NCBI RefSeq assembly: GCF_003862495.1 | Contig: NZ_RRCH01000008.1 | Span: forward strand, 1-64,000 | Direction of reading: 5' to 3' | DNA length: 64,000 nucleotides | Source: Halocatena pleomorpha | GTDB taxonomy: Archaea > Halobacteriota > Halobacteria > Halobacteriales > Haloarculaceae | Part shown: positions 23,472-25,993 of the stretch, piece after piece | Position numbering within the stretch: the first letter of the stretch is position 1 | Layout: every line of letters starts with the position of its first letter | Program-made: the position numbers and the translations under genes | The notes under the pieces: model-generated | Databases searched by the model: none | What the model saw: only the letters and a program-made list of their open reading frames with translations | What the model was told of the DNA's origin: nothing

Positions 23472-24173
23472 ATGACGAACTGGTTTCCGTCACGCGAATG
23501 GCTGACGGCCTACCGCAAGCGACTGAACGAAAACGAGACGTATGAGAAACAAAGCGAAGGGTGGGGCGTCGACTTCGATGGCGGATTCGTCTTCGAGATC
23601 ACTGATCTTCCCGTCACTGAGACGACCATCGGTGATCTCCCACCGGAGCTTTCGGCTGCGTTTCGTGAACGGCTCGAATCTGTCTCTGCAGCCCGGATCG
23701 AGGAGCTAATCGAGGCAGCACCACCCGAGCTTGCCGAGCGGATGAGCGACGTAGCTGCCGACAGTCCGCGAGAGCGATTCATCACCGCGCTGCTAGAGAC
23801 CGAAATCGAGGACGCACCGGCCGTGACGTGGCCCGATCTCTGTACGGAGATGCCCGACGATCTTGATGATCTCCTTGACCAACTGGAACGATACGTCCAC
23901 AAGGATACGGTGTATGCGTCGATCGATCTCCATGATGGCGAGTGCCGTGCAACAGAAGTGCTCGAAACGCCGCCCACGGAGGCGACTGGATTCGTTCTCA
24001 CTGCCCCCTACGGGAAATGGACTGAACTCATCGAAGGCGCTGACGTGATCGAAGCTGTCATGTCACAAGATATGGATCTCGACGGAGATATCACCAACGT
24101 CATCATCTATCCCGAAGCCGCACAGGAGATGGGCGACACCGCCGGCAGAATGGAAACGACGTTCCTGTTCTGA
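23472..24173 (+). CDS. SCP2-like sterol/lipid-carrier domain protein
   Basis: A 233-aa acidic protein. The C-terminal third (FVLTAPYGKWTELIEGAD, AVMSQDMDLDGDI, YPEAAQEMGDTA) follows the SCP2 pattern of a strand, a 'pyxxW' turn, and M-x-G-x-(hydrophobic)-x-G-D before a final helix. SCP2 domains bind fatty acyl chains or sterols in a hydrophobic tunnel. The next gene, on the same strand 160 bases on, is an R2lox-like oxidase whose family binds long-chain fatty acids, so a shared lipid substrate is possible. Confidence 0.68.
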   Translation: MTNWFPSREWLTAYRKRLNENETYEKQSEGWGVDFDGGFVFEITDLPVTETTIGDLPPELSAAFRERLESVSAARIEELIEAAPPELAERMSDVAADSPRERFITALLETEIEDAPAVTWPDLCTEMPDDLDDLLDQLERYVHKDTVYASIDLHDGECRATEVLETPPTEATGFVLTAPYGKWTELIEGADVIEAVMSQDMDLDGDITNVIIYPEAAQEMGDTAGRMETTFLF

Positions 24174-24270
24174 TACCTTTAAAATATGAATTATCCGTAC
24201 ACGAAACCGCCCCCGTTGAGAGATTATCTAACTGTTCGTCTAAATTAATAACCATAGTATATCCATAACA

Positions 24271-24328
24271 GTTTAAATTACCCCGTATGCGCGGCCGAAC
24301 CCTGATACGGATTTGACGACGATGGGAG
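24271..24328 (+). promoter_or_regulatory. Promoter and ribosome-binding site of the R2lox operon
   Basis: A TATA-like gtttaaatta lies at 24271-24280, placing transcription start near 24300. A GGGAG at 24324-24328 sits 5 bases before ATG 24334 and decides that start over TTG 24313 and ATG 24322. This separates the oxidase transcript from the SCP2-like gene, although read-through cannot be excluded. Confidence 0.55.
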
Positions 24329-24333
24329 TGTGT

Positions 24334-25380
24334 ATGTCACAGGTGCTCCAGTCACAATACTCGGGCCAACGGGTGGACACCGGGAGCAAGTGGTACACCC
24401 TGTTTCAGAAGGGTGTCGAACTCGGGACGTGGAACGTCGAAAAGCTGTTCGAGGAGATCGGATTCGAACAGGATCGGGAATCCTGGCAAAAGTTGTCTCA
24501 AGACGAGCGGGACCAGATTCGGTATTTAATTTCGGGGTTTTTAGACGGTGAGCGCGAGGTCGCAGGCGATGCAGCGACGAACCTCCAGCGCATTATGGGC
24601 GCGCCGTGTCTCGATGGGAACACGGAAAAGGAGATGTACATGACGATGCTCACGCTGACCGAGCACAAACACACCCAATTTCTAGACGTGTATATGCAGG
24701 AAGTGATGGACGATCGAGACAATTACAACGATCTCGATCCCCGGCGTGGGACGCGGATTCCGGTCGTGCAAGCGACGGGACTCGGAGAGGTATTCGAACA
24801 CCAGGGACTGTTAACGGCGAAAGCCGCGAACACCTTAGATCCGGTCGACATCGCCAAGGCCGCGACAAACTACCACCTGAACGTAGAGGGGATCCTCGCA
24901 CGCGTCGGAGCGAGCGCAATCAGTCGGTTCCCCGAGCGGGCCGATTTCCCGCTGTTGAACTACGCGTTCAAGTTCGTCAGCACGGACGAGGGACGCCACA
25001 TCACCCACGGGATCGAACTGCTAAAAGAACTCATCGAAAAGGAGGAGGCTGGCAACCCGCAGTTCCAAGGGGTAAAACAAGGGATCGTCGAAACGCTGTA
25101 CCAAGACGTGCCGTATATGGCTGATTTCGGTTACATGTTCACTGACGCCCTCGATGATCCGCTCGAACTCGATTTCAATGAGGTGCTGATGCGTGGGGGC
25201 AATCTCATCGACGGCATGTACAACGAGACGCTCGGACTCGACATCGACTACATGGAAGTACTCAACGTTGTCCGCGACCGGTATCTGGAGATCAACGAGT
25301 GGGACCTCAAACAGCGGGTTCACGAACAGGAACAGCATTACCAACGAAAGCGCGGGGTTACCACCGACGGGGGGATCTGA
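24334..25380 (+). CDS. R2-like ligand-binding oxidase (R2lox-type, class I RNR small-subunit fold)
   Basis: A 348-aa ferritin-like di-metal protein. The ligands read E73 (DGERE), E110-x2-H113 (TEHKH), E185 (NVEGIL) and E219-x2-H222 (DEGRH). A glutamate at the first position and the VEG context are R2lox-like rather than NrdB-like. The residues that form the Val-Tyr ether cross-link in R2lox are present at the right spacing: V76 (E+3) and Y180 (E-5). The C-terminus lacks the usual NrdB tail that docks with NrdA. It begins a three-gene unit with a helical protein and a ferredoxin. It may be annotated elsewhere as a ribonucleotide reductase beta subunit. Confidence 0.8.
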   Translation: MSQVLQSQYSGQRVDTGSKWYTLFQKGVELGTWNVEKLFEEIGFEQDRESWQKLSQDERDQIRYLISGFLDGEREVAGDAATNLQRIMGAPCLDGNTEKEMYMTMLTLTEHKHTQFLDVYMQEVMDDRDNYNDLDPRRGTRIPVVQATGLGEVFEHQGLLTAKAANTLDPVDIAKAATNYHLNVEGILARVGASAISRFPERADFPLLNYAFKFVSTDEGRHITHGIELLKELIEKEEAGNPQFQGVKQGIVETLYQDVPYMADFGYMFTDALDDPLELDFNEVLMRGGNLIDGMYNETLGLDIDYMEVLNVVRDRYLEINEWDLKQRVHEQEQHYQRKRGVTTDGGI

Positions 25381-25381
25381 G

Positions 25382-25669
25382 ATGGCACTTGACAGAGAAC
25401 TCAGGGAACTCGCTCGCGGCGCGGAGTTCACCGCAACCGACGAGGAAGTCGAACAGGCGATCGAGGAAGCGGCCGAGGAGTTGGGCGAATCCTCCGAGAA
25501 GGTCCGCGAGAACGTTGCCTACATCATGGATTCGACGTTCGAAGAGGAAGGTGTGAGCACCTCGTTTAACGAGATGGTGAGCGGTGCGAGTCTCGATGAC
25601 GACGTTTCGAGCACCGGCGACCCGCGTCTCGAAGCGCTCGAAATGTACAAACTCCGACAGCGGCTCTAA
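25382..25669 (+). CDS. Small acidic helical protein of the R2lox operon (95 aa)
   Basis: Starts 1 base after the oxidase stop codon and is predicted almost wholly helical, with heptad-like EVEQAIEEAAEELGESSEKV. There are no cysteines and no recognised domain. The C-terminal LEALEMYKLRQRL is amphipathic. Position between the oxidase and its ferredoxin suggests an adaptor or assembly partner. I do not recognise the family. Confidence 0.75.
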   Translation: MALDRELRELARGAEFTATDEEVEQAIEEAAEELGESSEKVRENVAYIMDSTFEEEGVSTSFNEMVSGASLDDDVSSTGDPRLEALEMYKLRQRL

Positions 25670-25675
25670 CGAAGC

Positions 25676-25993
25676 GTGAGCACCGATTACGAGGTCACCT
25701 TCGAATTCGACGGTGACACGACGACAGTAACGGTGTCCGACGATGAGTACATCCTTGACGCGGGTCACGAGGCGGGGCTTGATCTCCCGTTTTCCTGTCG
25801 TAACGGGAACTGTACGAGCTGTGTCGGAAAACTACTCGATGGTGATATTGACCAGAGCGACGGACTGGCGCTCGAATCCGACCAGAAAGAGGATGGGTAT
25901 GCCCTACTGTGTAGTTCCTATCCTCGGACGGACTGTCATATCGAAGCTGGTGACGGCATCCAACAGGAACTACTCGGTCTCGACATGTTATGA
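25676..25993 (+). CDS. [2Fe-2S] ferredoxin, plant type
   Basis: About 105 aa with the cluster motif C-x4-C-x2-C (SCRNGNCTSC) and the fourth Cys in YALLCSSYP. It lacks the long N-terminal insertion of the major haloarchaeal ferredoxin, so it is a dedicated small ferredoxin. A GTG start at 25676 follows the previous stop by 6 bases, indicating co-transcription with the R2lox-type oxidase. It probably delivers electrons to reduce the di-metal centre. Confidence 0.88.
   Translation: MSTDYEVTFEFDGDTTTVTVSDDEYILDAGHEAGLDLPFSCRNGNCTSCVGKLLDGDIDQSDGLALESDQKEDGYALLCSSYPRTDCHIEAGDGIQQELLGLDML

Follow-up and report, generated by a model that had tools for sequence, protein, structure and literature searches.

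The window analysed here, a 64,000-nucleotide stretch of Halocatena pleomorpha DNA (contig NZ_RRCH01000008.1, positions 1–64,000), carries a gene for an R2lox-type di-metal oxidase, which we call OX, in the company of genes for an SCP2-like lipid-binding protein, a small helical protein (HEL) and a ferredoxin (FDX). To our knowledge, the questions of what reaction R2lox proteins perform in the cell and where their electrons come from have had no answer for over a decade. The locus thus raises the question of whether the neighbors of OX point to its substrate, its partner and its electron donor. The original prediction, made from the DNA alone, was that the four genes form a complete ferredoxin-driven lipid oxidation system.

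Organization of the Locus

The four open reading frames were located at 23472–25993 as originally predicted, all on the forward strand. They encode the SCP2-like lipid-binding protein (23472..24173, 233 aa), OX (24334..25380, 348 aa), the helical accessory protein HEL (25382..25669, 95 aa), which bears an invariant DPRLEA motif at its C-terminus, and the plant-type [2Fe-2S] ferredoxin FDX (25676..25993, 105 aa, GTG start). OX was read from the ATG at 24334, and an alternative TTG start upstream would give a protein of 355 aa. All four genes are under purifying selection (dN/dS 0.03–0.18).

Only 1 base separates OX from HEL and 6 bases separate HEL from FDX, and because of these short gaps OX-HEL-FDX is very likely a single transcript. 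Between the end of the SCP2-like gene and the start of OX lie 160 bases. Upstream conservation within this region marked a probable promoter/operator of OX-HEL-FDX at 24272..24306 (forward strand), a TTTAAATTA box with a partly palindromic element behind it; this arrangement is kept in four Halocatena-group genomes with one match per genome. The 160-base gap, together with this conserved element, suggests that OX probably has a promoter of its own. A similar box and palindrome were seen by eye upstream of OX in other lineages; in most of them a TATA-like box precedes a palindrome-like element, to which Halorientalis adds an adjoining divergent regulator of the HTH_10 (Bat) type. The repeat search did not recover a suspected long inverted repeat, TAACTGTT...AACAGTTA, upstream of OX.

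Assignment of OX to the R2lox Family

An alignment of 31 OX sequences, with 43–100% identity to the OX of the window, showed that the metal ligands E73, E110, H113, E185, E219 and H222 and the cross-link residues V76 and Y180 are invariant, as they are in every R2lox group. Their codons lie, on the forward strand, at 24550..24561 (E73 and V76, which are invariant in the other R2lox groups as well), 24661..24672 (E110 and H113), 24871..24888 (Y180 and E185, the Tyr being missing from the two NrdB sequences) and 24988..24999 (E219 and H222). All six ligands and the Val-Tyr pair named in the original prediction are therefore present, and its numbering is correct for the ATG start. The first ligand is Glu in OX, as in every R2lox group, versus Asp in the two NrdB sequences, and V76 and Y180 align with the Val-Tyr pair of the Mycobacterium tuberculosis and Geobacillus kaustophilus R2lox proteins. 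Also invariant in the 31 sequences is the tunnel alanine A189, four residues past E185. An alanine (A171 in GkR2lox) lines the fatty-acid tunnel of R2lox where the R2 subunit of ribonucleotide reductase (RNR) has Phe, a free fatty acid is bound in the tunnel of characterised R2lox proteins, and R2lox proteins self-process through formation of the cross-link (PMC6399176).

The best matches of OX among the PDB sequences were all R2lox proteins, with RNR R2 far weaker. Among the NCBIfam R2lox models, NF006200 scored best (100.5 bits, E 1e-28), below its 194-bit cut-off, which is an annotation threshold and not a mechanistic definition. Because the R2lox models match, but below their cut-offs, OX is, judged by its sequence, a divergent R2lox member outside the present equivalog models. 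Folding was done without plasmid sequences in the alignment, and the AlphaFold model of OX had a pLDDT of 89.9. A fold search with this model ranked R2lox structures best by E-value and gave similar TM-scores for Chlamydia R2c, so the fold by itself is not decisive; the residues are.

In a tree of 81 sequences, all OX proteins formed one clade (SH-aLRT 99) on a long stem, which sat on the R2lox side of the branch leading to NrdB (branch support 95), apart from the two NrdB sequences, the bacterial and Sulfolobus R2lox proteins and 39 ordinary haloarchaeal R2lox-like rows. This tree came from a quick search with long branches and only two NrdB rows, and it does not fix the branching order among the R2lox groups. 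The ligands, the V76/Y180 pair, A189, the PDB matches and the tree agree on the R2lox identity first proposed for OX. A pattern-based scan of other prokaryotes, which distant relatives could escape, found members of the OX clade in haloarchaea only.

OX has the fold, the six ligands, the Val-Tyr pair and the tunnel alanine in common with the known R2lox proteins of M. tuberculosis (3ee4/4ac8), G. kaustophilus (4hr0) and S. acidocaldarius (6qrz). It differs from known R2lox in its low identity (~20–24%), its separate deep clade, its obligate HEL and usual FDX, and the clade-typical residues D71, Q157, R190 and F212; D71 and R190 are otherwise found only in one haloarchaeal R2lox-like lineage (L068/L150). 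The ordinary haloarchaeal R2lox-like proteins have the same ligands and Val-Tyr pair as OX, but they fall into a separate clade, and in the alignment ES, not EG, follows their cross-link Tyr. One of them, used as a query against phages, gave no match.

It is very improbable that OX is the R2 subunit of an RNR (NrdB), the annotation that many such genes carry. OX does match Pfam PF00268 weakly (32 bits, just under the cut-off), which speaks for NrdB, but it has the R2lox-type ligand E73, the V76/Y180 pair and A189, it is separate from NrdB in the tree, and the genome encodes a class II NrdJ (702 bits) and no other protein of the R2 family (PF00268). The residues, the tree position and the NrdJ rule against NrdB, and this assignment was rejected. 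In the public annotation of haloarchaeal plasmids, many R2lox-like genes are labelled ribonucleotide-diphosphate reductase subunit beta. Mislabelled genes of this kind probably lead to overcounting of class I RNR among haloarchaea.

HEL and FDX as Partners of OX

The distribution of OX and HEL was determined in 391 sampled haloarchaeal genomes. A HEL profile search of these genomes gave 32 copies in 28 genomes, exactly the 28 with OX, and every copy lay directly downstream of OX, as had been noted for the window. The p value of this co-occurrence is about 2e-43 when genomes are treated as independent; the OX genomes share ancestry, so this value overstates the number of independent observations. 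The association nevertheless exceeds chance. The 32 copies in 28 genomes, together with a dN/dS of 0.05–0.11, demonstrate that HEL is a real gene, and it is the tightest partner of OX. The three loci that have no FDX next to OX (L051, L060 and L061) all retain HEL, which accordingly seems to work with OX, not with FDX. HEL was not found at the eight ordinary haloarchaeal R2lox loci that were checked.

FDX passed the TIGR02008 model (102 bits versus a cut-off of 81), its four cluster Cys residues are invariant, and it adjoins OX in 29 of the 32 loci. By the same motif search, a ferredoxin within 1.5 kb of an ordinary haloarchaeal R2lox gene was found as one doubtful match in 38 loci. The comparison of haloarchaeal R2lox neighborhoods, 29/32 versus about 0/38, and the presence of HEL in 32/32 OX loci thus bore out the predicted linkage of oxidase, helical protein and ferredoxin.

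Could the four genes simply adjoin by chance? The 160-bp gap after the SCP2-like gene and the apparent promoter of OX would fit such a reading, but the linkage is kept across many genera despite rearrangement, and this conservation, together with the HEL/OX co-occurrence, makes it extremely improbable.

No Pfam or NCBIfam model matched HEL at cut-off, PHROGs gave no hit, and neither the PDB sequences nor the fold search returned anything significant. Weak matches to the trigger factor C-terminus, DnaN and other proteins were sub-cut-off and mutually inconsistent, and were discarded. The model of HEL (pLDDT 65, moderate) has three helices, a poorly predicted stretch at residues 54–77 and a C-terminal helix at 81–94 that bears the DPRLEA motif. 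HEL would act as a docking subunit.

The main rival on mechanism is cofactor maintenance, in which FDX would only assemble or repair the cofactor, as YfaE does for E. coli NrdB, HEL would be a metallation chaperone, and OX would make few turnovers or a single one, acting for instance as a sensor that needs O2 or as a modifier of proteins. We consider this unlikely. It is consistent with the E. coli gene order, in which the ferredoxin gene yfaE comes immediately after nrdB, with the self-processing of R2lox by its cross-link (PMC6399176), and with the three OX loci that have HEL but no adjacent FDX. The class Ia RNR beta subunit NrdB and its maintenance ferredoxin YfaE do resemble the OX locus in that an R2-fold gene precedes a small [2Fe-2S] ferredoxin. 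The OX locus differs, however, in having no large RNR subunit, in its R2lox residues, in the placement of HEL between oxidase and ferredoxin, in its lipid context and in its ferredoxin, as the plant-type FDX scores only 23.6 bits against the YfaE model (cut-off 75). Repair alone would also leave unexplained the lipid catabolic neighbors of OX and a Rhodococcus R2lox locus with a ferredoxin, an FAD oxidoreductase and an alcohol dehydrogenase (ADH).

Lipid-Gene Neighborhood of OX

The SCP2-like protein of the window matched no Pfam family; 10 of the 15 members of its family match PF02036, some homologues above the cut-off, and for this reason the SCP2-like label appears right at the family level. 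Its gene has a dN/dS of 0.11–0.18, and the protein shows profile similarity to a second SCP2 family, SCP190. Genes in the fetched loci were called with a codon-usage script, not a standard gene finder, and missed HEL and FDX genes were recovered by tblastn. Near the 32 OX loci we counted the SCP2-like gene (SCP) 26 times, an acyl-CoA dehydrogenase (ACAD) 19 times, SCP190 18 times, an acyl-CoA ligase 10 times, an aldehyde dehydrogenase (ALDH) 6 times and an ADH 5 times. The predicted lipid context is thus seen in relatives, most of which keep the SCP2-like gene (26/32) and the ferredoxin alike. The identification of HEL as the tightest partner and the ligase, ACAD, ALDH and ADH genes added by relatives go beyond the original prediction. 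Its inclusion of the SCP2-like gene in the set holds in so far as this gene is near 26 of the loci, but its tie is looser than that of HEL and FDX, and OX seems to have its own promoter.

In several Natrialbaceae (L039, L044 and L047, together with L043 and L046 of Natrialba, whose HEL and FDX genes were placed with tblastn), the genes run ligase, SCP190, ACAD, membrane protein (MEM), SCP, OX, HEL, FDX, ALDH and ADH. Halorientalis has the same core genes in another order, with SCP, SCP190 and ACAD downstream. Between the two groups, gene order has changed and gene content has been kept. In the Halocatena group, ACAD (about 79% identical to the ACAD of L035) and SCP190 share a second locus with an SDR-like gene and further SCP2-like genes, and in the genome of the window ACAD and a second SCP2 gene are on another contig. 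The claim of a complete system accordingly stands for the linked oxidase, ferredoxin and lipid genes, but not for its completeness, given the separate contig and the lack of a ferredoxin reductase gene in the OX cluster. In haloarchaea, ferredoxin is reduced by 2-oxoacid oxidoreductases.

Genome G175 (L164) has the ligase-SCP190-ACAD-MEM-SCP cluster without OX, HEL and FDX, which makes the OX-HEL-FDX cassette look like an addition to a cluster for acyl-CoA catabolism. As a strain for comparison, G175 is a natural choice to show what the cassette contributes. Our literature search on SCP2/ACAD lipid catabolism in haloarchaea and on the degradation of archaeal lipids found nothing usable.

It is possible, though we lean against it, that the substrate is CoA-activated or branched, for instance an acyl-CoA or else an isoprenoid acid of archaeal lipids, and that OX comes into play once the ligase has acted, to hydroxylate or desaturate this substrate, instead of attacking an alkane at the outset. 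Such a substrate would suit the nearby ligase, ACAD and two SCP2 families, an acyl-CoA thioesterase in one MAG, the isoprenoid nature of haloarchaeal membranes, and the presence of ALDH and ADH near only 5–6 of the 32 loci. The downstream ADH and ALDH of the Natrialba and Natronococcus loci, by contrast, accord with a hydrocarbon or alcohol being hydroxylated at its terminal position, and known R2lox tunnels hold a free fatty acid. As this alternative differs from ferredoxin-driven hydroxylation of a long chain in the substrate only, the two overlap, and our confidence in one does not exclude the other.

The MAG in question, Euryarchaeota archaeon Ods02 (L051), has OX-HEL immediately behind SCP190 and ACAD, with a 4HBT-type thioesterase after it in place of FDX, hinting at an acyl-CoA substrate. 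The two second OX-HEL copies of Halorientalis (L060 and L061) are without FDX and lie downstream of the cobalt-transporter genes CbtA/CbtB and a large chelatase-type AAA-like gene. Some OX copies may have a second role.

Proposed Mechanism

The residues, clade, linkage, co-occurrence and lipid context described above are established at the level of sequence. The best-supported mechanism, to which we assign a probability of about 0.58, is that OX-HEL-FDX is a ferredoxin-driven R2lox-type monooxygenase that hydroxylates a long chain; its metals, cross-link, chemistry and substrate, and the role of HEL, are what we infer. OX would hold a Mn/Fe (or Fe/Fe) site, and the V76-Y180 ether cross-link would probably form at the first O2 activation, as in characterised R2lox. 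FDX would supply two electrons per turnover, and HEL, as an obligate small subunit docked on OX, would have its part in gating or coupling turnover or in assembly of the site. A long alkyl or acyl chain would be presented by the SCP2-like protein, and the hydroxylated product could pass through alcohol and aldehyde dehydrogenases, where present, to the acyl-CoA ligase, ACAD and beta-oxidation.

Within our data, this mechanism draws on the invariant R2lox residues, the coincidence of HEL and OX in 28/28 genomes, the frequency of adjacent FDX and the lipid neighbors. An independent locus on Rhodococcus plasmid pRB11 also favors it, with an NDMA-dependent ADH, an FAD oxidoreductase and a ferredoxin upstream of R2lox and an ALDH further downstream. 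On Mycobacterium pMyong1, R2lox has an ACAD, an ADH and a fatty acid-CoA ligase in its vicinity, and the lipid and ADH/ALDH neighbors of known bacterial R2lox loci are like those of OX. From the literature, crude lysates with GkR2loxI consume alkanes (PMC10867098), and hexadecane upregulates an R2lox gene in Halorientalis hydrocarbonoclasticus, a report that we take from its citation in PMC10867098 and whose gene may or may not be of the OX clade; the genus Halorientalis carries this clade. Against monooxygenase action stand the 3 of 32 OX loci without adjacent FDX and the cobalt-uptake genes adjoining two of them, the minority of loci with ALDH and ADH, and the Geobacillus alkane assay itself, which used crude lysate and in which a ligand double mutant was only modestly less active.

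The bacterial multicomponent monooxygenases of the sMMO type, which combine a di-metal oxygenase, a small accessory protein and a [2Fe-2S] donor, are a works-like analogy only; the OX system has a single R2lox-type oxygenase chain and no fused reductase. Neither by sequence nor by fold does HEL match a solved protein, and it is not classed with the MmoB/DmpM-type effectors, so that no known effector backs the role assigned to it. We suggest only tentatively, and with considerable doubt, that HEL founds a new kind of activator subunit, which would make of the self-processing R2lox scaffold a multi-turnover, multicomponent Mn/Fe monooxygenase, driven by ferredoxin and with hydrocarbon chains or archaeal isoprenoids as substrates.

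R2lox proteins as such are known, and a lipid role and alkane oxidation have been proposed earlier by others; what looks new is the OX subfamily, with a partner exclusive to it, HEL, and an FDX of its own. HEL and FDX are named missing components for reconstituting R2lox turnover, and the cassette, which occurs in culturable haloarchaea (Natrinema, Natrialba, Haladaptatus and Halorientalis), is a candidate for the hydroxylation of hydrocarbons or lipids in this group. Outside the OX clade, an ordinary R2lox-like gene of Haloferax mediterranei pHME505 (L152:3929-4780), annotated as 'hypothetical', lies between phaC (PHA synthase) and a fatty-acid-synthase-like gene set.
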